From positions 21,821,315 to 21,885,314 of the forward strand of contig OY755242.1 in NCBI GenBank assembly GCA_963576725.1: a stretch of DNA of 64,000 nt, given 5' to 3'. The notes below the pieces were generated by a model, which made no database searches, was not told where the DNA came from, and worked only from the letters and a program-made list of their open reading frames with translations. The stretch comes from Azorinus chamasolen (taxonomy: Eukaryota; Mollusca; Bivalvia; Cardiida; Solecurtidae). Position numbers and translations under genes: made by a program. Position 1 is the first letter of the stretch; each line of letters starts with the position of its first letter. Below are positions 2,646-60,700 of the stretch, one piece after another.

Positions 2646-3854
2646 AGGTTAGAATGAATAGAGCTTACAAACACTTATACAAACTTTGAGCATTTTATTT
2701 CGCCTGGGAGAATGACACAAAATTAATGGAACAATTTCATATAAATAAACAAAATAAAATCTTTGCTGCTGGCGTGCAAAGAGTTCAGGAGAGATTTCTG
2801 GAAAACGAGCATTTTAAAACAAGAATTGCAATTTAACTAGTGCTATTGTAAAAACATTACTCCAGATTGCCCATACTGTATGTAATTCAGCTAACAAAAT
2901 CAACAGCAGATGCTAATGGGTAAATGCTCACCTGTCTGTGAAATATTCGATTCGATAGATTTCTTAAAGGCACACAACAATAGTCAGTATGATTGAATAG
3001 TCTCGTCAGATTGAGGCACTTATAATTGTGTGTAAACATTGAGGTGTGATAAAAGCTGAAGAAAGCTGCAACATTATGATCTGAATTACTACACATCTCA
3101 ACTTCTTTGATCTAATTCATGATGTATAACTTTAACCCTTTACTTACATGTAAAGTGTATGAAAGTTTTTCATCCAAATTTCTAACTGGGTAAACTACTG
3201 TTAACATTTGACAGTAATTTACTATACATTAAAATTTGTCATCAGAGTCATATACATGTATTGTTAAACCTTGCTAATCCAAACACTCCATAAATATCAT
3301 CAGTCTATAAGACTGGAAGAAATAAATTCTGAAGGGAGGTGATCCCCCGAGAGCAAAAATTGCAACACAAAAAGGGAAAATTGCAGACTCGATTTATTGA
3401 GTCTGTTCATGAACAGTAATTGAAAGTGCAACACTGCTCATGCCCCCTAGCACCGGCTTAAGCAGTATTCAATTTTCAGAACAAGAAGTACTGAAATTCA
3501 TGATCTCGAAGGATCGAAGTTGAATGCAGGGTGAAAGTCATGCATAAACTTCCTCTGGGGGCAGTCCACATGATTTTCACCAAGCACAAAGCAGCCACAT
3601 GCCTACACTGTTTAAAGTTTTAAATTGTTCTTCACTAAACATTGGACAGGTTTAAGTGTAGTGAAAATAACAATACCCTCACCAACTATTACAACTTTTT
3701 ATCCGCTAAGAAATTTCAATAGGGATTTTAATAGACAATTCTAAAAAAATTACTTTTGTTCAGTATTTTTCAATCAACTCATTCAAATGTTCAGAACGGC
3801 TCTGATGAAGTCTTGTGTGACACAGCATCTAATCTCAGTCTGGATCAAAACTGT
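2646..3854. other. no gene seen
   Basis: AT-rich. Contains a degenerate hairpin (3515-3610, TGCAGGGTGAAAGTCATGC) and a family E remnant near 3770-3855. An open minus-strand stretch at 2931-3065 ends in a donor-like CAG/GTGAGC but has no recognisable product. Confidence 0.45.
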
Positions 3855-35479: not shown

Positions 35480-36057
35480 GACTGCATGTCTGGCTGTCAA
35501 CCCTTTTACAGTTGGCAATCACGCTGGCCTCTTTGCATGTATGCCAAGAAAGGTTTAGTACTCTATGAAAGCGACCTCTTAAATCCGGAAACGGAAGGAG
35601 GATGTCGGATATCTGTACTCTTTCGTTTGTATCGTACCCTTCATTACTTTCCTACAGTTACTCTGTTTGCAGCTCAATCATTGAGTACGCTAGCGATAGG
35701 TGGATACAGGTTTTGTTTCACTTAAACATTTTCGTTTTACATGCATATTACCAATGTATTTGCTATCATGGTTGTTGTAGTTTAGTCGGAGGGGGATACG
35801 TTTATTTACACTGTTTCTCTTTTAGGGCGGGGATGGAATAAGTGTGAGGTTAGGCGCCCCTAAACCCTTAGTGACTATTGTCACTGAATGTTCCAAGGCG
35901 ATACTTCCATCTTCCCCTATTATTTGCTTGTTTTGTCTTTGTGCGTAACTTTATGTTTTTGGTAGATATGTACATTTGCTGTGATTTCTTGTGTTGCTGT
36001 TTGGGCGGCTGTTTGTTCTGTATGTAGTGTTTCCTGTATGACTAATATTTGTACATT
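35480..36057 (+). mobile_element. Naiad copy V, 3' end fragment
   Basis: Aligns with 43000-43592 of copy R from the last RT codons through the 3'UTR (cgatagg, GGCGCCC, TTCCAAGGCG and cctgtatgact blocks). The coding frame is broken. It keeps a second copy of the SECIS-like hairpin. Confidence 0.75.
35556..35620 (+). promoter_or_regulatory. second copy of the SECIS-like hairpin
   Basis: Counterpart of 43082-43146: TAGTAC at 35556-35561, ATGA at 35565-35568, AAA after a 12-nt helix, GGAT at 35607-35610 and GTACT at 35615-35619. At one helix position the C.A mismatch of copy R is a C-G pair here, and one G-C is a G.U wobble. Confidence 0.55.
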
Positions 36058-37904
36058 TTGCATTTCTGTCGCCTGTACAACCCCACCTGCTACAACAACA
36101 TATCCTTCTGGCATCATGTCACTCTAGCGAAGCAATTCAGCTACAAGAAATCAGCTAGGTCGTTTTAGTTTTCATCCAGAAAAATGTATTGTTCCCAACT
36201 TCCTAGACATGGGGCAGTGGAACCTCTGGACCTGTGATTTTCGTATTGGATATCTTTTACCAGTCCTTTACTTCCATGAGGCAGCTTTGACAGACTTGTT
36301 CCCATAGTATCTAACAAAACCGACACCCACCGTGCCGTTGTATCTTTATAAAGGACAAAGACTGAATAAACCCATTCGTTTGCATGCTCTCAAAACGTCT
36401 GACAACCATAAGGGTTGCTTTTGGATTGAATAAGCGCGTGCCCGTCTATAACAATGCACGTAGACGTCTATGATTCAGGTATCTTTTGTGGGGTTTCTAT
36501 ACCCTTGTGTTTTGTAAAAAGATCCAGGATGCGGACTTTTGTCGTTGGGTTCATATCTCCATTTAGTTTTGCCAAGGTCAATGTCACAGTACAGCTCATG
36601 CTTCAATACGTCAGCGGTTTTCACAGTGCGATCGGAACTAGCTCCCTAACTAGCTAACTTCCTCTACTTTCACCTGTCAGCAGGCCATTGTGGATCTCCT
36701 CTGTTGTCACATCCTTGGATGCAATGGAAACAAGCTGATCTATTGCAACGGGTACATTGCTTTGCTTCTCATGTGCTGGGAAACATAACAAACACTTCTA
36801 AAGCCTTAAACAAAGCAGCAAGCAAGAGCGTTGATCTTTTCCTCTTCTGCATTTACACGAGACGTCTGGGCATCATGTTTTGTGCTCTTATTTTCATCGT
36901 CGTCATCATTGAGGTTTTAAAGTCTCTATGTTTCACCCCTTACCTGAGACTTACATGACCATGTGATACACAGTCTGTCTCGGGGTTAGTCTTGTTGTGT
37001 GATGCCGATTTGGCCACCGGCAGTTTTGCAGACCTTGTAAGTTGAAACACAACTAAAGATTAAAGAAAGACGATACAGGAAACCCGTTTTGTCTCAAGCT
37101 GGCAAACATATGCAAACTTATAGACGCGTATAAAATAGATGTTGGCGTAGAAACGTAATCCGAATTATACATGTATACATACAGCTGGTTCACAGGTTGG
37201 TTTGTGTTGGAGGTTAAAGAAGTCGATATGAATAGATCATTGAAACCTTTTTTAAGTGACAATGTGTTTAGGGAACACAGTGGTTACTGTATACATATCT
37301 CAGTTTAATCCAACTGAAGCTTTCTGTATTGTTTTCTACTTGTATTAAGCTAGCACCTGTTCAGAAGGTCTTCTGTCTATGATCGCTCGCAAATCCGTGC
37401 CACCAAAACTAATGTGCGCGTAGCTCGGGCGAGAATCTGTCGAGAAAAGACCGATAATTTGTCGTCTGAGCGAGGCTAGAACATTCGAGATCGCATCTAA
37501 ATCGTATTGATCGAGGGTACATTGCAACTCGTTCGTAGCTAGATTTGCCGGGAACGAGTCTTGGTCGGCAGAGATCACGCGCTTGCGAGGATAGATTGCC
37601 GAGAGATCGAGGCAATGTCGCAGATTGGTCGAACAGAACGAACCTTGGTCGTGTCAAGATCACTTCAGATCGAGTGGATAGACGTAGGTAGAGCGTATAT
37701 AGAGCGTGTGTAGAGCGTATAGGACGTATATAGAGCGTGCACATCGAAGGTCAAACGAGCTAACATCGAACATAGAGCGTGCACAGAAAATAATGGGGTA
37801 GGTCGCACTGTTTTTGCCCGCGACTATGGGAAAACCGAGCTGCGATTAAGGTCTCGCGTGGTCGCATGCGAATTTTCCAGGTCGTACTCGGTGAAATGAC
37901 CCCA
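36058..37904. other. no gene recognised; GC-richer part at 37370-37860
   Basis: No domain or splice-supported exon. 37680-37745 holds several TAGAGCGT repeats. The GC-richer stretch has open minus-strand frames (37345-37744) without recognisable motifs. It separates the V fragment from copy Y. Confidence 0.4.
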
Positions 37905-38254
37905 TTACCTTCGTCAAACAAGAAGTCAAAAGAATAGACATTTTAGTAGTTGTACGTGAACTAGAATTTGCAATGAAACGCGCTTTATATGGATTTTTAT
38001 GTAGTTTTGGTAACCAATACATTGTAGGAAGTATGTTGTGTATTTTTAATATCTGTTCCAAATTGTTCACACATTTTGACATGATCTGAAATGATGGTCT
38101 TTTCGTCAGTAGTAACTAAAATGTATGACTTGGTATTAATAATTTCCTGCTTCAAGACATCGATATAATGTAATCGTCAAATAATAATCACATTGTTCGA
38201 TGCCTTATCAGCAGGAACAAAAACGTATTTTGAATGGAAATCCTGTAAATGGAA
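37905..38254 (-). mobile_element. Naiad copy Y, part 2
   Basis: Resumes copy Y at DFHSKYVFVPADKASNNVIII, keeps the TGA (38177-38179), and runs through a 2-nt deletion to LPKLHKNPYKARFI and LLTSCLTKV. Similarity to copy R ends at about 37905. The catalytic RT motifs of Y are therefore missing at this locus. Confidence 0.8.
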
Positions 38255-39520
38255 AAGTAGTAAAGTCAAGCAGGCAAAGCCACATGCAAGACGCAACCAC
38301 CACCAAAACACCGATAGACAGCATGACACACACACACACACACACACAACCACACACCCAAACGCACACACACACACACACACACACGTAATGAACACAG
38401 AAAACACCAAAATACACACAAGAAACAGGGACAAACGTTCCACAACATGAACAAACCACAAGCACAAAGACGCGAGGCAAACAAAAAGAAGGGTGACAAA
38501 GAGAGTACCGCCTTGGCACGGTCAGCAGCAAAAACACCACTGGGGGTTTAAACCGGTTTACGGACGTCTTAACCTCACACTTCTCTCAAAGTCACCCTAG
38601 CTTTACAAATATTGTAAATAAAGGTATCCCCGCTGGACTTACCCACAACATAGACGACGGTGAACACAGGACAACATGTAAAACATAGCATAATAACTGT
38701 GACAAACCGTCAAATATGTACTCAATGACTTTGCTGAAGTCAGAGCACCTGCAGGTAAGCCGTTAAGGGCACGACAGGGAAAAAGTAATACATGAGTCTG
38801 GTAAGCTCCTCCTGTATCCAAGTTTAAGAGTATTCCATCAAAGAGTACTACCCTCGGCCTGTCATCGCGCAAGCAAAGAGGGAAGCGTAGCTACCGACTG
38901 TAAAAGGGTCGATAACCAAACATGCAGTGTGTTGCAATATAATAGGATCATAACCTTTCTTTTTAAATGTTTTAATGCGTTTTATAAACAAATCATGAAA
39001 ATGGATATGACCCCGAATTTTCCTAAGTTTGTAGACAACATCTCCATAAAATTCTGGTTGAGAAATGCCTTGTCGCAGTAACGTCCGTAGATTGCAATTA
39101 TATTTACTAATGAGAGGTAAATTTCGATAATAAAATTTAGAAAAGGTTTTCCGAAGTTTGTGATATCTGTAACCTTGCTTAAGAAGTTTATCAGTTATAA
39201 CTAAATTACGTCTGTTAAAATCTTCAAGCAAAGAACAGGCTCGGGCAAACCTAATAAGTTGAGAAATATAAACCCCATAAGATGTAGAAAGTGGCACATC
39301 CCCATCTAGAAAAGGATAATTAACAATTTTAAAATTAAAATCTTCTCTGTTATCGTATACTTTTGAGGAAACTTTATCATTTGTAATTGAAAGATTCTAA
39401 TCTAAAAATGAAGCATTAATGTCAGATTGATTAGCTTTGTTTAAAGACATTTCCTTTGGGTAGATTGAAGAAACCATAGTATCAAAATAAGGATTATCTA
39501 AATTCAAAATATCGTCTAAG
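38255..39520 (-). mobile_element. Naiad copy X, second subfamily, inserted into copy Y
   Basis: This 5'-truncated copy starts inside RT motif C (LDDILNLDNP) and reads through YGVYISQLIRFARACSLLED and RKTFSKFYYRNLPL to a TAG at about 38848. A 3'UTR with (GT)n and the 3' end GACTTTACTACTTTTCC follow. A TAG near 39397 breaks the frame. It is more diverged from R and Y and closest to the copy at 59045-60050. Both sides are copy Y sequence in the same orientation, which is a nested insertion. Confidence 0.78.
38325..38388. repeat. (AC)n microsatellite inside the Naiad X 3'UTR
   Basis: (AC)n with CCAAACG interruptions. A similar (ACACGC)n tract is at 60231-60300 beside another Naiad-like 3'UTR sequence (ACACCGATAGA precedes both). 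Confidence 0.85.
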
Positions 39521-40518
39521 ATGTCTAAAAGAAAGTCTAGGTTTAGGTGGAAGAAGGTGTTTATTAGAGCTATAAAAGGAAATGCGTTTATCAATTATAT
39601 CAAAAATTAGTTTTTTCCAACAAGAAAGAGCATTAGACTCAACATGTTCTCTTCGACACCATTTAATACTAAAATTTTGTAAAGCCTCCGCAATCTGAAC
39701 TCGACAAGAGTTAAAATCTATCAAGGATGGTATTCTTTATTTGGGACCTTTATTCAAAAGAGATCGTAGACGTTTATCTTTAATTATCTCAAAATTACCA
39801 GTAATCACATGACCAGCCGGAGAATAGCAAAATTTTGAGGTGGCGCAATCTCAATTATCAGGAATATTATCATTAAAATTAAGGTCGGCCACAATGTTAT
39901 TATAGTTGAAAATTGTATTTCTGATGGGTTTGTTATATTTGTAGCAGATGATAGGTGGTTCTGTATTTCTAAAGTATTTAGGAATAGTGTCAATTACATT
40001 TTTGTCTCTAAATATACTTTGGAGGTCAATAAATTCAATACCTTTATTAATAAAAGGAATTTTCAAGAAGAATCTTTGGTGTTCAGATAGTTTGTCAATG
40101 TGCGGTCTGAGAACATGTAGAGTAAAGCTTTGTATCAAACTAGCCGTTTCTATGAGAGGATCTGATCTAAAAAGAATTTTATCGGCTTGCTCGTCAATTT
40201 ATTTTAATGAACATATAATAAGGAGGAAAGTCTAGAAAGCATGGCATGTTTACCCGAAGTTAGGCGTAAAGTATGTAGATCAAGAAGAGTCATTTTCAAA
40301 CGAGATTTTCGTTTAATATTACCATTTTTGCGAATGCCATGTGATCGAGATTTGCGTTTTCTAATAGAAAAAATTGAAAAAGTATCTATATCTGGTTCTT
40401 TTGAAATATTTCCAGTCTGGTAAATATTATCATTCAGTCCTAAAGGAAAAGGTGTTTGCAATTTTTTGATCCAATTTAATTCAGATATAAATCTAGCTTT
40501 CGATTTAAAGCTACTAGT
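39521..40518 (-). mobile_element. Naiad copy Y, part 1 (left arm of the palindrome)
   Basis: On the minus strand this repeats copy R from TSSFKSKARF through the linker, the [TGA]-DC motif (TGA at 39851-39853) and KGPKYR to HLLPPKPRLSFRHL, at roughly 97 percent identity where I compared bases (4 differences in about 140). A frameshift after LSRLSSL shows decay. At about 39520 it is interrupted by copy X; the rest is at 37905-38254. Confidence 0.82.
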
Positions 40519-40526
40519 AGCCTATA

Positions 40527-43084
40527 AGGAGGCGACTAGTAGCTTTAAATCGAAAGCTAGATTTATATCTGAATTAAATTGGATCAAAAAATTGCAAACA
40601 CCTTTTCCTTTAGGACTGAATGATAATATTTACCAGACTGGAAATATTTCAAAAGAACCAGATATAGATATTTTTTCTATTTTTTCTATTAGAAAACGCA
40701 AATCTCGATCGCATGGCATTCGCAAGAATGGTAATATTAAACGAAAATCTCGTTTGAAATTGACTCTTCTTGATCTACATACTTTACGCCTAATTTCGGG
40801 TAAACATGCCATGCTTTCTAGACTTTCCTCCTTATCTATATGTTCATTAAAAGAAATTGACGAGCAAGCCGATAAAATTCTTTTTCGATCAGATCCTCTC
40901 ATAGGAACGGCTAGTTTGATACAAAGCTTTACTCTACATGTTCTCAGACCGCACATCGACAAATTATCTGAACACCAAAGATTCTTCTTGAAAATTCCTT
41001 TTATTAATAAAGGTATTGATTTTATTGACCTCCAAAGTATTTTTAGAGACAAAAATGTAATTGACACTATTCCTAAATACTTTAAAAATACAGAACCACC
41101 TATCATCTGCTACAAATATAACAAACCCATCAGAAATACAATTTTCAACTATAATAAAATTGTGGCCGACCTTAATATTAATGATAATATTCCTGATAAT
41201 TGAGATTGCGCCACCTCAAAATTTTGCTATTCTCCGGCTGGTCATGTGATTACTGGTAATTTTGAGATAATTAAAGATAAACGTCTACGATCTCTTTTGA
41301 ATAAAGGTCCCAAATATAGAATACCATCCTTGATAGATTTTAACTCTTGTCGAGTTCAGATTGCGGAGGCTTTACAAAATTTTAGTATTAAATGGTGTCG
41401 AAGAGAACATGTTGAGTCTACTGCCCTTTCTTGTTGGAACAAACTAATTTTTGATATAATTGATAAACGCATTTCCTTTTACAGCTCTAATAAACACCTT
41501 CTTCCACCTAAATCTAGAACTTCATTTAGACATCTTAAAAAGGGTTTACAGGATTTCCATTCAAAATACGTTTTTGTTCCTGCTGATAAGGCATCAAATA
41601 ATGTGATTATTATTTGACGATTACATTATATCGATGTCTTGAAGCAGGAAATTACTAATACCAAGTCATACATTTCAGTTACCACTGACGAAAAGACCAT
41701 CATTTCAGACCATGTCAAAAAGTGTGAACAATTTGGAACCGATATTAAAATTACACAACATAAACTTCCTACTATGTATTGGTTACCAAAACTACATAAA
41801 AAACCATATAAAGCGCGTTTCATTGCAAATTCTAGTTCATGTACAACTACTAAATTGTCTATACTTTTGACTTCTTGTTTAACGAAGGTAAAGGAACATG
41901 TAAAATTTTACTGTGATAAGACTTATGAAAATTCTGGAATAAATCTCTTCTGGTCTATTAAGAACTCTTCAGAAGTCTTAAACAAACTTAAGAACAAAAG
42001 GTATCTTGCATCCACTGTAAGCACTTACGATTTTTCTACTCTGTACACAACTCTTCCTCATATTTTAATTAAGGATAAGCTTACTAGCTTGATCCAGAAA
42101 GTATTTGCCCGAGAAAAAACATCGTTCTTGGCATGTAATGCTGAAAAAGCTTTCTTTACTGACGAGCAAATGAAATATTACACCAATTGGACTTGCTCAG
42201 AAGTTTGCGAAGCACTAACCTTTCTTTTGGATAACATATTTGTACGTTATGGGAATGCTATATACCGTCAGGTAATTGGTATTCCCATGGGTACGAATTG
42301 TGCACCACTTGTCGCAGATTTGTTTTTGTACTGCTATGAGAGAGATTTTATGTTGAGTTTGAATCCTCAATCACAAGAAGATGTTATAAAAGCCTTCAAT
42401 GATACTTGTCGATATTTGGATGATATTTTTAACTTAGATAACCCTTTCTTTAATGCTCTGATTCCTACAATTTATCCTAAAGAACTCAAATTGAATAAAG
42501 CTAACCCGTCTGACAATTATGCGTTTCTTGACCTAGACCTTAAAATTAATAATGGAATGATTTCTTCTAAAATATATGACAAAAGAGATGATTTTGATTT
42601 TAATATTGTAAATTTTCCTCATCTTGACGGGGATGTTCCCCGTGCTCCATCTTACGGGGTTTATATATCTCAACTTATTCGTTTTGCTAGAGCTTGTTCA
42701 TCTATTGACGATTTTAACAGTCGAAATCTCATTTTAACTGAAAAACTGCTTAAACAAGGATATAGATACCATAAACTAAGAAAAACTTTCTCTAAATTTT
42801 ACTATCGAAATCTCTCGCTTATTGGCAAGTACAAATGTAATCTCAAGGTACTTTTGCGACACGGTATTTCACATCCTGAATTTTATGGTGATGTGATTTA
42901 CAAACTTCGTAGAATTATTGGACATACCCATTTTCTCACTTTGTTCATCAAATATATAAAACAATTCATTAAAAAGGGATATGATCCTGTATTATTACAA
43001 CATACTGCATGTTTGGTTGTGAACCCTTTTACAGTTGGCAATCACGCTGGCCTCTTTGCATGTACGCCGACAAGAAAGGTTTAG
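40527..43084 (+). CDS. Naiad reverse transcriptase ORF with two in-frame TGA (putative selenocysteine) codons
   Basis: One reading frame of about 852 codons runs to the TAG at 43082-43084, interrupted only by TGA at 41201-41203 and 41615-41617. Order: linker ISELNWIKKLQTPFPLGLND; basic region RKRKSRSHGIRKNGNIKRK; [TGA]-DC, the CxC motif with its first Cys replaced; YSPAGHVITG; PADKASNNVIII-[TGA]; the Penelope fingers motif LPKLHKKPYKARFI (41783-41824); motif A DFSTLYTTLP (Asp codon 42029); motif B GIPMGTNCAP (42278-42307); motif C YLDDIF (42413-42430); and the thumb segment YGVYISQLIRFARAC. All RT catalytic residues are present. The upstream ATG at 40466 belongs to the antisense of copy Y and is not the real start. 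Apart from the TGAs no stop or frameshift is seen, so this is a young copy. It is either a recoded selenoprotein gene or a copy with two nonsense codons; I favour recoding. Confidence 0.8.
41201..41203 (+). other. in-frame TGA, putative Sec codon in the CxC motif
   Basis: The frame reads NDNIPDN-[TGA]-DCATSKFCYSPAG. If the TGA stands for Cys or Sec, the residues U-D-C make the CxC motif that links endonuclease and RT in Naiads. The same TGA is at 39851-39853 (minus strand) in copy Y. Confidence 0.65.
41615..41617 (+). other. in-frame TGA, putative Sec codon before the RT fingers
   Basis: The frame reads KASNNVIII-[TGA]-RLHYIDVLKQE and stays open on both sides. As I recall, relatives often have Cys at this place. 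The same TGA is at 38177-38179 (minus strand) in copy Y. Confidence 0.6.
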
Positions 43085-43146
43085 TACTCTATGAAGGCGA
43101 CCTCTTAAATCCAGAAATGGAAGGAGAACGTCGGATATCTGTACTA
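43082..43146 (+). promoter_or_regulatory. candidate SECIS element overlapping the RT stop codon
   Basis: Eukaryotic SECIS hairpins recruit SBP2 and the Sec-specific elongation factor. Here a closing stem TAGTAC (43082-43087) pairs with GTACTA (43141-43146) across a small internal loop. ATGA (43091-43094) faces GGAT (43133-43136), allowing the tandem G.A core. A 12-nt helix (43095-43106) pairs with 43122-43133, with two mismatches. The apical loop starts with AAA at 43107. The ATGA to AA spacing of 12 nt is canonical. The TAG stop codon is the first three bases of the closing stem. Confidence 0.65.
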
Positions 43147-43592
43147 TTTCATTTTTGTCGTACCCTTTATTACTTTTCTACAGTTACTCTGTTTGCAGCT
43201 CAATCATTGAGTACACTAGCGATAGGTGGATACAGTATGTTCAATTAAATGTTTTTTTGTTATACATGCACTTTACCACTGTATTTGCTGTCGCGGTTGT
43301 TGTAGATTAGTCGGAGAGGGGATACGTTTATTTACACTGTTTGTCTTTTAGGATGGGGATGGAATAAGGGTGAGGTTGGGCGCCCATAAACCGGTTTAAA
43401 CCCCCGGTGACTTTTGTCACTGACCGTTCCAAGGCGGTACTTCCATCTTCCTCCTATTGTATGTTTGTTTTGTCTTTGTGCGTCTCTTGTTGTTTTTTCT
43501 ACCCATGTATATTTGCTGTTTCCTTGTGTTGCTGTTCGGGCGAGTGTTTGTTCTGTATGTGGTATTTCCTGCATGACTCATTTTTGTACTTT

Positions 43593-44478
43593 CCTTATCA
43601 TATGTTATATGCTCAACAATTTGTACTAAAACATCTTTAAAAAAATATCCAGATTTCCGAAAGTGTTGGTATAAAAAATTGTTTAGTTTACGATTTCGAC
43701 ACTGATATGCATGCTCACGAAATCGAGTCTTCAAAACACATCCTGTTTGTCCTACGTACTGTATACCGCAACTAGGCGCGTTTCAAGTTAAAACATAAAT
43801 AACGTTAGTAGTAGTACAATCAACGTCTGAGTTTATCTTGACATTAAATGTTCTACCATTAACTGTAGATTTTATAGTGGAATTACAAGAAATGTTACTA
43901 CAACATATGCACCTCTTAGCAAAGCACTTTTGAATGATCGGATACACTCTGTGTCGCCTGCATAAGGACCGTTTACGAATAGAAGAAACATTTTGGATAA
44001 CAGATTTTAAAGGTGAAAGTACAACTCTTGGTCAATTGAAAAAACATTTATTAATAGAAAGAGATGGTATGTGAAAAGATGATGCCGACTGAAGATTAAG
44101 TTGTTTTAAACGAACAAAAGGTTGAAGGGAAGAGAAATTAGAAATATTTCTGGGTACTTGTACAGACGACACAGATAGCATATTTATAGCTTTCAGTTCT
44201 ATCAGAGGCATTTTAACGTTATTCATATTGGAAAGTGATAGAGGGGCACCTGTACGTATTGTGTTCATCAACACGTCAATTACATTAGTGTAGCTACCAA
44301 GTGCATCAAATTGTTGGTGAACACAACACCTACCACGAGGTGCATGACATACTTATGATGATGTAAAAGGCGAATGAGAGTTGTGTATGTTACTTGCATA
44401 TCCTGCAAGAGAATGATAACAACATCGATTACGTGTACGGGGAGACTTTTTACGGCCACCACACGGCACAAGCAACAT
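43593..44478 (-). CDS. Naiad GIY-YIG endonuclease N-terminal ORF with TGA codons (broken)
   Basis: The frame starts at the ATG 44478-44476 (MLLVPCGGRKKSPRTRNRCC) and remains in one frame to 43593. It is interrupted by TAA at 44355-44353, TGA at 44034-44032 and TGA at 43785-43783. The C-rich segment QKCFAKRCICCSN is consistent with the CCHH zinc motif. IYVLT-[TGA]-NAPSCGIQYVGQT is the GIY-YIG core (GIQYVGQT at 43767-43744), followed by LKTRFREH and LYQHFRKSGYFF. In Penelope endonucleases the residue after IYLIT is normally Cys (IYLITCxxC), which is exactly where the second TGA falls. The TAA looks like true decay; the TGAs fit the selenocysteine idea. Confidence 0.72.
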
Positions 44479-44640
44479 TGTTGTGATAATAAAAGTACAA
44501 AAATGAGTCATGCAGGAAACACCACATACAGAACAAACAGTCGCCCGAACAGCAACACAAGGAAACAGCAAATGTACATAACTATAAAAACAACAAGAGA
44601 CGCACAAAAACAAAACAAACATTCAATAGGAGGAAGATGG
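43593..44640 (-). mobile_element. Naiad 5' half, copy W: pseudo-LTR plus GIY-YIG endonuclease region
   Basis: Reading on the minus strand, 44640-44487 resembles the 3'UTR end of copy R (ending ATGACTCATTTTTGTAC). An ORF start follows within 10 nt, and the coding region then runs to 43593. A 3'UTR piece directly upstream of the ORF is the pseudo-LTR arrangement typical of Penelope-like elements. The half stops at a TYDKE coding segment, the point where R begins (KEATSS), so W and R are complementary halves in opposite orientation. Confidence 0.75.
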
Positions 44641-46020
44641 ACACTATTCTATACGTTGTATTTGAAAGTACAATAAGGCTGCTTATTTCAGTATGCATTT
44701 GCATGACGTATAGTGCATTTCTTGAAATGCTGATTTTGTAATTCTGGCAGAAGCTCTGTAACTAGTAACATGTATGAAGTATACTTCAATTCTAATTATG
44801 TATATGATTCACAGAATAGAAAATACATGAAAACACAATGTTGGACTTTTAATGAATGCCGGTTTCTAAAATTCCGGGTTTTATGACTTTACATCCTATC
44901 AGGCTTTCAAAGTAAACCCTACAGCTAATTATATACATATGATTTGCATAATAAAATACGTGAAAACAAAATCTGGGAGTTTTTAATGAATGCCGCTTTC
45001 TAAAGTTCCGTTTTTTTGTGTTAGCTAATTTTTTTTTTTTTTCAAAAAATGTATATATTGTCACGTGACCACGTGACCTGTCACAACCCATAGATATTTT
45101 TTCTGTGCGAATAATCAATATATCATCTATGTAATATAAGAATTCCAGAAATCCGCAGTTTTAGCGATAATATCTATACCCCCCCCCCCAAAAAAAAAAT
45201 ATAAATAAAATAAAAATACACTAAAATGCATTTTCTGACTTTGCATCCTATAAAGCCTACAAAGTGAACCCTTCAGCTAATTATGTATATGATTTGCAGA
45301 ATAGAAAATACGTGAAAACAAATTGTGGGACATTTAATGAATGCCGATTTCTAAATTCCCGGGCTTTTAAGACTAAATTTTTTAAGATTTTCCCCCAAAA
45401 CAATGCATACATTGTCATGTGATCTGGTTTTTTGTTACTTAGTATGTTAGTATAAACTGTTAACAACCCATTGATATTTTTTCTGTGCGAATAATCAATG
45501 TATCATTTGTGCAATATAAGAATTCCAGAAAGTCGCAGTTTGGGCGATAGTTTTTAGTTTTCCCCCAAAAAATCACACTTATAGGCATTTTCACACTTTA
45601 CATCCTATCAGGTCTTCAAAGTGAACCCTTCAGCTAATTATGTATATGATATGCAGAATAGAAAATACGTGAAAACAAAATGTGAGACATTTAATGAATG
45701 CTGATTTCTGAAATTTCGGGCTTTTATAGACTAAATTTTAAGGTTTCCCCCAAACAAATCCATACATTGTCATATTATCTGTTTTTTTGTTAATTAGTAT
45801 GTTAGTATAAACTTTCAACAACCCATAGACATTATTTCTGTGCGAATAATCAATGTATCATCTGTGCAATATAAGAATTCCAGAAATTCGCAGTTTGAGC
45901 GATAGTTTTTACAGTTTCCCCCGAAAAATCACACTTATATGCATTTTCTGACTTTACATTCTATCAGGCTTTCAAAGTGAACCCTTCAGCTATATGAATC
46001 AGAAGAAAATTGCCCGTAAA
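44641..46020. repeat. ~350-bp satellite, about four units
   Basis: The marker AATTATGTATATGATTxGCA recurs near 44792, 44926, 45276 and 45636, and GTGCGAATAATCAATxTATC near 45106, 45486 and 45840. The period is about 350-360 bp, with one shorter unit at the left. No coding content. Confidence 0.8.
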
Positions 46021-46329
46021 CACGAAATGCCATCAGGTCCATTTTCTAGAGGCTTTATTTTGATTCGTAGGTAGACTATTTGTGAGAATATAAGAAACCA
46101 CCATAAGTATTCATGTAGGATATGAATATCTCACCCGAGGGTCAGAAAATCAACAAGCAGATATTTGCCGAGTACTTGGGTGATTTTCTGATCCAATGGG
46201 TGAGGTATTTAGACTCTTTTACGAACCATGGACGTTTTTCTCCCAGCTTGAACAATGATCGATTAATTTCTCCCTTTCAGGTGCTTAAGCGCTGTTTTCC
46301 TAACTCGTAACGACCGTCTCTTGTGAATT

Positions 46330-47265
46330 TCCGTCTCAGTCTGAGAGGCTTATTAATGCACAGAAATTATTGAATTTAGGTTTAAGTTGTTCGTTGGGGT
46401 CCTCAGAACAAATTTTGAGTATTTCCCCAAATAGTTTTGTCCCATCTATGTTTTATTAAACGGTTTCCATGGTAACCCGAGGTAAATTTCAAAACATCAT
46501 TGGTTCAGAAAATGCGTAATAACTTTGCTTTTAGAGGCAATAGAAGGACAAAACAAGTACCAAAGTAAAGCAGAGACATGTAGCTTGAATATGATATATA
46601 ATTTTGATAATATTACTAAATTATTACTTATGAATTTTAATGAGGAAGTAAACAATTCCGCTTTTTTTAGAAAAAGGAGCTTGTTGTTTAGGCTTAGAGG
46701 CCTATTAATGCATAGAAATTATTGAATTCAGGTTTAAATTGTTCGTTGGGGTCCTCAGAATACCTTTTGAACACCCCCCCCCCCAATATAATTGTGTCCC
46801 AGCTATGTTTTATTAAACGGTTTCCATGGTAACCCGAGGTAAATTTCGAAACTATATTGATTAAGAAAATGCTTCATAACTTTGCTTTTAGAGACAATAG
46901 AAGGACAAAACAAGAACTAACGTAAAGCAGAGACATATAGCTTGAATTCGATATGTAATTCTATTAAAAAATGTACTCCTAATGCATTCTTATAATGCAT
47001 TCTTATGAATATTAATGGGGAAGTAAAAATGCGTTTATAGTTTGACGTGTTTGTTTTTAGTCTGAGAGGCCTAATAATATACAAACAGTTATTGAATTCA
47101 GATTTAAATGTTTTAATATCAACATACAAATAAAGGAAAACATCTTTGGTTCATGTAATATTTCTAAAAACATGTATATTTAAGCTAATTTGCATATAAC
47201 GTGCGTAAATGAATAAGCAATTTAACATAAGCCCTATATTTAGCATTGTTTCGAGTGTACTATCT
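46330..47265 (+). repeat. left arm of a large inverted repeat (itself two to three ~360-bp units)
   Basis: Units with GTTCGTTGGGGTCCTCAGAA, GGTTTCCATGGTAACCCGAG and TTTTAGAGGCAATAGAAGGA. The same sequences occur inverted at 49862-50885. Confidence 0.8.
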
Positions 47266-58929: not shown

Positions 58930-59044
58930 CCATGGAATCATAATAAATTTGTTCTACTAACTGAACCGAAACATATTTCAAAGAATGTCCTGTATGACGA
59001 AAATGCGAACTGTTTTTATCTATATTATACGATAAAAGGTAGGA
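58930..59044 (-). mobile_element. Naiad GIY-YIG fragment (inverted 5' piece)
   Basis: The minus frame reads SHFRHTGHSLKYVSVQLVEQ then IYYDS, matching QHFRKSGYFFKDVLVQIVEH in copy W. It abuts the RT fragment at 59045 in the opposite orientation, with its own 5' end at the junction. Confidence 0.65.
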
Positions 59045-60050
59045 TTTCAATTTCAAAAATGTTAATTATCCTTTTCTAGATGGAGATATGCCCCGTACTA
59101 CATTTTATGGGGTTTACAATTCTCAACTTATCCGGTTTGCCCAAGCCTGTTCTTTGCTAGAAGATTTTAATGGTCGTAATTTAATTATAACTGATAAACT
59201 TCTTAAAAGTACGGTTACAGATGTCATAAAATTCGGAAAGCTTTTTCTAAATTTTATTATCGAAATTTACCTCTCATTAGTAAATATAATTGCAATCTAC
59301 GGATGTTACTGCAACAAGGTATTTCTCATCCAGAATTCTATGGCGATGTTATCTACAAACTTCAGGGTCTTATCCATTTTCATGATTTGCTTATTAAACG
59401 CATTAAAACGTTTAGGAAGAAAGGTTAAGACCCCATTATATTTCGACGCACTGCACGTTTTGGTTATTAACCCCTTTACGGTCGGTAGCTACGCTTCCCT
59501 CTCTGCTTGCACGATGACAGACCGAAGATAGTACTCTATAATGGTACACTTTTAAACCCAGAAACGGGATGAGCTTACCAGACTCATGTATTACGTTTTC
59601 TCTGCCGTGCCCTTATAGGTTTCTCTGCAGTTGCTCTGACTTCAGCAAAGTCATAGAGTACATATTTGACGTACTTTCACTGTTGTCGTCATGCTATGTT
59701 ATACATTTTGTCCTGTGTTTACCGTCTTCTATATTGTGGGGAAGGCTGGCGGGGATACCTTTATTTACACTTTTTGCTAAGCTAGGTGACTTTGAGATAA
59801 GTGTAAGGTTAGGACGTCCATGAACCAGTTTAACACCCCCCACCGGGGGCACTGATCGTTCCAAGGCGGAACTCTCTTGGTCACATTTGCTTTTATGCTT
59901 ATTTGGTGTCTGTATATTTGTGCTTGTGCAGTTGTTCATATTTGCATTTTTTTGTCTCGTGTGTGTTACTTGCTTTGTTTCGTTGTTTTGGTGGTGGTTG
60001 CGTTTTGTGTGTGTCTTTTACTGCTTGACTTTACTACTATTTCATCTAAA
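59045..60050 (+). pseudogene. Naiad RT C-terminal fragment and 3'UTR (subfamily X)
   Basis: Reads DFNFKNVNYPFLDGDMPRTT, YGVYNSQLIRFAQACSLLED and then, after a frameshift past KLLK, fragments matching KFYYRNLPLISKYN. It ends VINPFTVGSYASLSACT with TAG at about 59531. The 3'UTR shares the blocks GTTTTGGTGGTGGTTGCG and GACTTTACTAC with copy X. Clearly inactive. Confidence 0.75.
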
Positions 60051-60700
60051 TACAGCACATATGGCTTTTCTTACATAAAGTATACATGAAGGATGTAATA
60101 CATGTTGAAGGAAAATAACATCACATCTAGCAGTAGATAAGAGTGGCACAGGTCTATCAAAATCTCTAATTTGTTAGTCAATCTCACCCAGGACTCAACC
60201 ATTACCACAACACCGATAGAAAATAAGTGAGACACACACGCACACGCACACACGCGCGCACACACAAACACGCACGCGCATACACACGCACGCGCGCACA
60301 TGCGTATCGGCAATATATGGTTTGGTGGAGTAATTGAAGAACATACTTTACGCACGTTGTCTACAACTCTGAAAATATTCATGTATGGACACATTCCAAA
60401 GGCCAATTAATAAAAGCAAGTTTTATAATATAACTATTAATACTTAAGCATTTTATCAGATATGTCATAATGTGCATACATAGATTAAAAGGTATTTAAT
60501 TTGGCATCCCAAGTGGCACTTTATATAGCAGAAAAAGTAACACTTTTACATACTCTATACATACTGGAAAGAAAAAAAACCCCACAAAATATGTTATGAG
60601 AAGACAACTAGTCCAGAACTCTTTCTAAGGACTTTGCAGTTACCCGGAAATGGTTGCTTGGTTTTAACCATACATCTAATCTAATTTTATTATTTTTCAG
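60051..60700. other. 5' flank of the DUF229 exon; microsatellite
   Basis: Contains (ACACGC)n at 60231-60300 and AT-rich sequence. The DUF229 acceptor ends at 60700. No promoter could be assigned; a 5' non-coding exon further left is likely. Confidence 0.4.

Follow-up and report, generated by a model that had tools for sequence, protein, structure and literature searches.

A 64,000-base stretch of DNA from the bivalve Azorinus chamasolen (assembly GCA_963576725.1, contig OY755242.1, positions 21,821,315 to 21,885,314 of the forward strand), referred to hereafter as the window, carries several copies of an abundant Penelope-like retroelement. From its sequence, the element is predicted to encode a single protein of 1063 residues with an N-terminal GIY-YIG endonuclease, a CxC linker and a telomerase-like reverse transcriptase (RT), and we are highly confident that the TGA codons lying in this open reading frame (ORF) encode selenocysteine. 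It is a well supported example and not a new phenomenon: a new member of the Naiad-type selenoprotein elements.

The plus-strand copy in the window, R, has one frame spanning 40529-43084, closed by TAG (43082-43084); its only interruptions are TGA at 41201-41203 and 41615-41617, with zero other stops. An earlier reading of the window from its letters alone (the sequence-only reading) had described this RT half in the same terms. R contains ORF residues about 212-1063, the hairpin described below and the 3' part, and it extends roughly 500 bases into the next tandem unit; the endonuclease half is missing. The complete frame was seen in L020 (family 1), which runs from ATG to TAG in 1063 codons with TGA at residues 148, 436 and 574, and in L064, from a sister family (family 2), which also has 1063 codons from ATG to TAG and carries TGA at residues 137, 148, 436 and 574. 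Neither contains any other stop. We refer to the sites by ORF residue as A (137), B (148), C (436) and D (574). The codon at A is TGT in L020 and TGA in L064. Within the window, C and D are found in R and B in W, an endonuclease half on the minus strand that reads Cys at A (Table 1). A further family 2 copy (L067) has TGA at A-D, plus decay. Family 3 is represented by the decayed copies L065 and L066, both with Cys at A and TGA at B and C; site D is TGA in L065, L066 lost the element before D, and the ORF of this family stops at TAA. Sites A and B belong to the stretch of the GIY-YIG domain in which Cys and His are conserved, and in the predicted structure D is where an RT strand ends (model residues 355-363; mean pLDDT, the predicted local distance difference test, 75.8).

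The TGAs are conserved across genomic copies. Copy counts obtained with protein queries refer to the best-scoring matches and describe the intact fraction. When the R protein was the query, all 53 scored copies had exactly two TGAs and zero TAA or TAG. With P0002, exactly two TGAs were present in 53 of 54 scored copies and three in the remaining one, and for P0114, whose identity is 40% and which reads Cys where the copies have TGA, 48 of 48 scored copies had exactly three TGAs and nothing else. The W protein gave 130 matches, 118 with exactly one TGA and 0 without a TGA (counted by eye); the other 12, including W itself, had additional stops. Two TGAs, as expected for family 2, were counted by eye in 143 of the 150 matches to P0127, and the remaining 7 had one TGA, or two or three together with TAAs. 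Among the fetched family 1 copies other than R, TGA was present at C and D in 29/29 and at B in 27/29, the other two being truncated 3' of B. A codon-degenerate pattern with TGA around site D matched the genome 4019 times (0 for the reversed control). Tandem copies were found on contig C19 at steps of 3961 bases. The retention of TGA in 53/53, 54/54 and 48/48 best-scoring copies supports the selenoprotein proposed by the sequence-only reading, and sense codons in most copies, the outcome it had named as contrary, were not seen among the scored or fetched copies.

Relatives carry Cys at the same sites, as that reading had anticipated. We listed 120 of 738 homologs found, with lengths restricted to 0.55-1.75 of the query. 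Listed relatives covering site C have Cys in 9 of 13 cases and Trp in 4; at site D the residue is Cys in 33 of 44, Trp in 10 and Arg in one. Six Cys-bearing relatives cover 766 columns of the RT half; Cys is conserved in eight of these (at least five of six), and both TGAs fall on such columns (chance about 1e-4). In an alignment of 20 rows, C and D were the sole Cys columns at which Trp appeared in the seven Trp-bearing rows, and this Trp is probably TGA that the gene caller translated with code 4. Other predicted ORFs break off at the sites, which also favours selenocysteine: P0131, P0132 and P0134 end just before C, P0130 and P0133 (with Cys at C) just before D, P0124 just before B and P0126 just before A. 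Four relatives (P0122, P0125, P0127 and P0128) have Trp at both A and B. A scan of genome contigs gave three distant relatives (L039-L041), two of which, L039 and L040, were used as Cys outgroups; at the DNA level both have Cys codons at C, D, A and B. No relative was found in a scan of viral contigs. The W TGA at 43785-43783 does occupy, as had been suggested, the Cys position of IYLITC when compared with other Penelope-like endonucleases, also of the same genome.

The protein is kept beyond each TGA, because the ratio of nonsynonymous to synonymous change (dN/dS) is low by segment between L020 and L064, which are identical at 743 of 1061 aligned residues. The ratio was 0.232 for the segment up to B, 0.198 for that between C and D and 0.103 for that after D, so that where dS is finite it lies at 0.10-0.23, below 1 as the sequence-only reading had foreseen. 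Between B and C, synonymous sites are saturated with change (proportions of changed sites: synonymous, pS, 0.762; nonsynonymous, pN, 0.176). Within family 1, the variant codons of 29 copies chosen by score comprised 30 synonymous, 19 nonsynonymous and 0 nonsense changes, where the possible single changes number 1617, 5655 and 378, respectively.

A candidate selenocysteine insertion sequence (SECIS) lies at the end of the ORF. The Rfam model SECIS_1 matched R (Table 1), L064 at 3280-3342 (23.2 bits, E 0.021) and L065 at 738-674 on the minus strand (31.0 bits, E 0.00015), and in all three families the match starts inside the ORF stop codon (TAG, TAG and TAA). Folded standalone, the window hairpin (z score -2.46) and those of Z, a family 2 fragment in the window (z -1.72), and L064 (z -2.02) adopt the SECIS form. 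Across four sequences, 97.2% of 72 cells were paired and 6 of 18 pairs had changed on both sides, compared to 42-58% paired in slid controls; for two measures, shuffled sequences could come as far (9 and 59 of 500). Adding two more old fragments from the window gave 95.4% of 108 cells paired. No SECIS was found in the Cys relatives L039 and L040 at E values up to 3. Host machinery is encoded in the genome: the best match for the selenocysteine tRNA scored 80.7 bits, with 2 of 34 weaker matches just above the cut-off of 47, and SepSecS gave seven colinear matches on contig C11.

That selenocysteine is actually inserted at the UGAs we infer from these sequence data. In the mechanism we propose, the UGAs at B, C and D, together with A in family 2, would be decoded by host machinery recruited through the SECIS hairpin that starts within the true stop codon. 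One SECIS would presumably serve all UGAs, giving a full protein with three selenocysteines in family 1 and four in family 2, and translation would terminate at the stop codon, at the foot of the SECIS helix. A role for the selenocysteines in metal binding or redox control is possible given their places: A and B in the Cys/His region of the endonuclease, C in the CxC motif and D at the close of an RT strand.

Several observations count against decoding as selenocysteine. The selection of copies by best score favours intact frames, and R, W and Y, the minus-strand partner of W, are all broken copies. The SECIS matches (26.0, 23.2 and 31.0 bits) are all below the Rfam gathering score of 35, and the minimum-energy structure of the family 3 hairpin in L065 is not a SECIS (z -0.96). 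One listed relative has Arg at D, and the reading of Trp as TGA in relatives is drawn from protein rows. The last of these points, and the scores below the gathering score, would also fit ordinary suppression, in which a near-cognate or suppressor tRNA would place, for instance, Trp, Arg or Cys at the UGAs and the SECIS would be unused; Trp in 10 of 44 and Arg in 1 of 44 listed relatives at D, read at the protein level, speak for it. Ordinary suppression does not, however, predict that the sites coincide with conserved Cys columns, nor does it fit the restriction of Trp, in the Trp-bearing rows, to C and D among the Cys columns, or a covarying SECIS at the stop in three families, and we consider it improbable.

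If the UGAs were instead real stops, the element would make separate polypeptides from ORF segments restarted behind each UGA. Gene callers do cut relatives at these places: 61 of the 120 listed homologs start no more than 28 residues after D, where the length window limits late starts but not early ones. Yet other relatives continue through with Cys at the sites, the four-segment ORF has a length of 1063 in family 1 as in family 2 and each site keeps its residue number, the cuts would fall within the GIY-YIG domain and an RT strand, and the SECIS would be left unexplained; we think this very unlikely. Decay, by which ordinary nonsense mutations in a dead or trans-complemented source copy would have spread to give the TGAs, is largely refuted and to our minds the least credible account. 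It would agree with the state of the window copies (R without its 5' part, Y with two TAAs and indels, W with a private TGA) and with the 22 nonsynonymous against 19 synonymous codon differences between Y and R, a balance that decay predicts. It conflicts with TGAs at the same Cys columns in three diverged families, with zero TAA or TAG in the 48 of 48 scored copies and with the absence of nonsense among the variant codons of the 29 score-chosen family 1 copies.

The window copies are nested. By blastn, W and Y are consecutive parts of a single older family 1 copy on the minus strand, into which R was inserted as a younger plus-strand copy; the older copy is interrupted by R and by the second-family fragment Z. 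W had been taken for the 5' half of R's element, and this did not hold: R and W differ in divergence from L020 (99.5% versus 96.7% identity), W runs on into Y, and R plus W as one element was rejected. The statements on Y were borne out in that both RT-half TGAs are kept at about 3 percent divergence (96.9% identity over 1355 compared bases). The claim that stop types are not mixed and that frameshifts are lacking is correct for R and fails for Y, where two TAAs and several indels occur. Similarly, two W TGAs and an in-frame TAA had been proposed, and only the TGA at site B stands. At 44034-44032 the codon in fetched loci, with overlapping loci counted more than once, is GGA in 47, GGC in 2 and TGA in 2, and both TGA cases (L009 and L042) are the window locus itself; as a private change of a Gly codon, it was rejected as a recoding site. 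The TAA at 44355-44353 was rejected both as a recoding site and as an in-frame stop, lying 43 codons 5' of the ATG.

Table 1. Features of the element copies in the window
Feature	Position	Strand	Remarks
R, young 5'-truncated family 1 copy	40524..43600	+	99.5% to L020 over 3080 bases
TAG, true ORF stop in R	43082..43084	+	TAG in 29/29 fetched family 1 copies
Candidate SECIS hairpin, first helix begins within stop codon	43083..43145	+	SECIS_1 26.0 bits, E 0.0037 in 251-base search
Site C (residue 436), TGA; first residue of CxC motif (U-D-C)	41201..41203	+	
Site D (residue 574), TGA; III-U-RLHY closing an RT strand	41615..41617	+	
W, 5' region and endonuclease half of older family 1 copy continuing in Y	43592..44641	-	96.7% to L020 456-1502
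TAA upstream of start codon, outside ORF	44353..44355	-	43 codons before ATG (44226-44224)
Probable ATG start of ORF in W	44224..44226	-	Aligns with start of 1063-residue ORFs of L020 and L064
Private TGA of W, Gly codon in other copies	44032..44034	-	
Site A (residue 137), Cys in W (reads DVDC; position counted from W's ATG)	43816..43818	-	
Site B (residue 148), TGA; IYVLT-U-NAP within GIY-YIG domain	43783..43785	-	W
Y piece 1, continuation of W; site C TGA 39853-39851; two TAAs	39517..40523	-	97.2% to L020 1502-2509
Y piece 2, beyond insert Z; site D TGA 38179-38177	37905..38249	-	94.8% to L020 2517-2863
Z, second-family fragment	38246..39519	-	97.3% to L064 2610-3875; folds like SECIS, z -1.72

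The head-to-head junction of R and Y forms a near-perfect palindrome at 40218-40835 (306-base arms, 98% complementary, with a 6-base spacer), and there are more inverted arms beyond it. In an Rfam search of 36500-46500, matches named for microRNAs at 40428-40625 sit on this inverted repeat. A CA-rich microsatellite occupies 38250-38540 in the Y/Z region, upstream of Y piece 2, and about four direct repeats in a row, roughly 352-357 bases each and satellite-like, lie beside W at 44727-45992. Further Naiad 3' fragments, both with SECIS-like sequence, are present at 35481-36059 and 58935-60059; one is family 1-like (91% and 85% to pieces of L020) and one family 2-like (85% to L064). Farther along the window, a 248-codon ORF at 60748-61494 matches PF02995 (DUF229) with 64.4 bits and is probably an exon of a host gene. 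The regions L062 and L063 were tried as further families and rejected, since they hold other GIY-YIG elements; in L063 there is, in addition, the 3' end of an old family 1 copy that includes SECIS-like sequence.

It is rare for a mobile element to encode a selenoprotein. With thousands of copies in this one genome (4019 matches for site D alone), the element offers a natural experiment on the exchange of Cys and selenocysteine, on the decoding of multiple UGAs in one mRNA and on the evolution of SECIS elements. It also carries a warning for annotation, as the predicted relatives in our set are frequently truncated at the UGAs or carry Trp in their place. Two details may be new: the start of the SECIS within the stop codon, and the exchange of Cys and selenocysteine at A from one sister family to the other. 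We advance only tentatively, and with more doubt than conviction, a wider picture in which up to four conserved Cys of a replication protein (two in the GIY-YIG domain, one in the CxC linker and one in the RT) are now selenocysteine, one of them varying between Cys and selenocysteine in sister families, and in which each terminating ribosome would unfold the SECIS, since hairpin and stop codon have bases in common; the mobility of thousands of copies would then hinge on the supply of selenium, and decoding would be coupled to termination.

Naiads have a CxC motif between endonuclease and RT, and occur as tandem copies with pseudo-LTRs (long terminal repeats) and as complex inverted insertions; they are not known to carry a hammerhead ribozyme motif. 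In domain order, CxC motif and copy arrangement the element agrees with this description. With TGA read as Cys, PF01541 matched L020 residues that precede the RT (22.9 bits, cut-off 22.6), placing an N-terminal GIY-YIG domain in the one ORF, and the CxC motif reads U-D-C or U-N-C here and C-D-C or similar in relatives. Pfam gave no family for the two window halves, and sequence searches of solved structures gave no match for the RT; when the RT model (mean pLDDT 75.8) was compared with the PDB by Foldseek, the 16 best matches were all telomerases. In 36500-46500, where the broken copies lie, no hammerhead stood among the Rfam matches with E values up to 5. The tandem copies and nested inverted pieces are a Naiad-like arrangement. 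Judged by domain order, the CxC motif, the modelled telomerase-like fold and the tandem and inverted copies, it is a Penelope-like element of the Naiad type.

Naiads of spiders and clams reportedly became selenoproteins with multiple selenocysteines independently, and those of clams are said to share with the present element the N-terminal GIY-YIG domain, the CxC linker, the telomerase-like RT, the tandem and inverted copies and several TGAs at Cys sites. Among the literature matches listed, judged by titles and abstract openings, there was no paper on a Penelope selenoprotein. Canonical elements of the Penelope/Poseidon type, such as PAc (PMC11167929), likewise have a GIY-YIG domain with IYLITC, an RT and tandem copies, but their endonuclease is C-terminal, whereas that of the window element is N-terminal. 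Other GIY-YIG elements of this genome (L001-L008) have IYLITC, with Cys and not TGA at the position of site B; in L003-L007 the endonuclease is preceded by a longer coding stretch, and L003-L008 look canonical in order.

The hairpin shares with the eukaryotic SECIS (Rfam SECIS_1, RF00031) the AUGA and GA core, the AAA 5' of the apical part and an extra apical helix. In contrast to it, the match is below the gathering threshold and the first helix starts in the stop codon, so that this helix would lie under a terminating ribosome. The Naiad-like proteins P0094, P0110 and P0116, at 38-40% identity, have GIY-YIG, CxC and RT in the same order, with Cys at A-D; unlike the window element, they carry a C-terminal ubiquitin hydrolase (UCH) domain behind the RT, and Pfam UCH was found in these 3 of the 20 members of the 20-row alignment.

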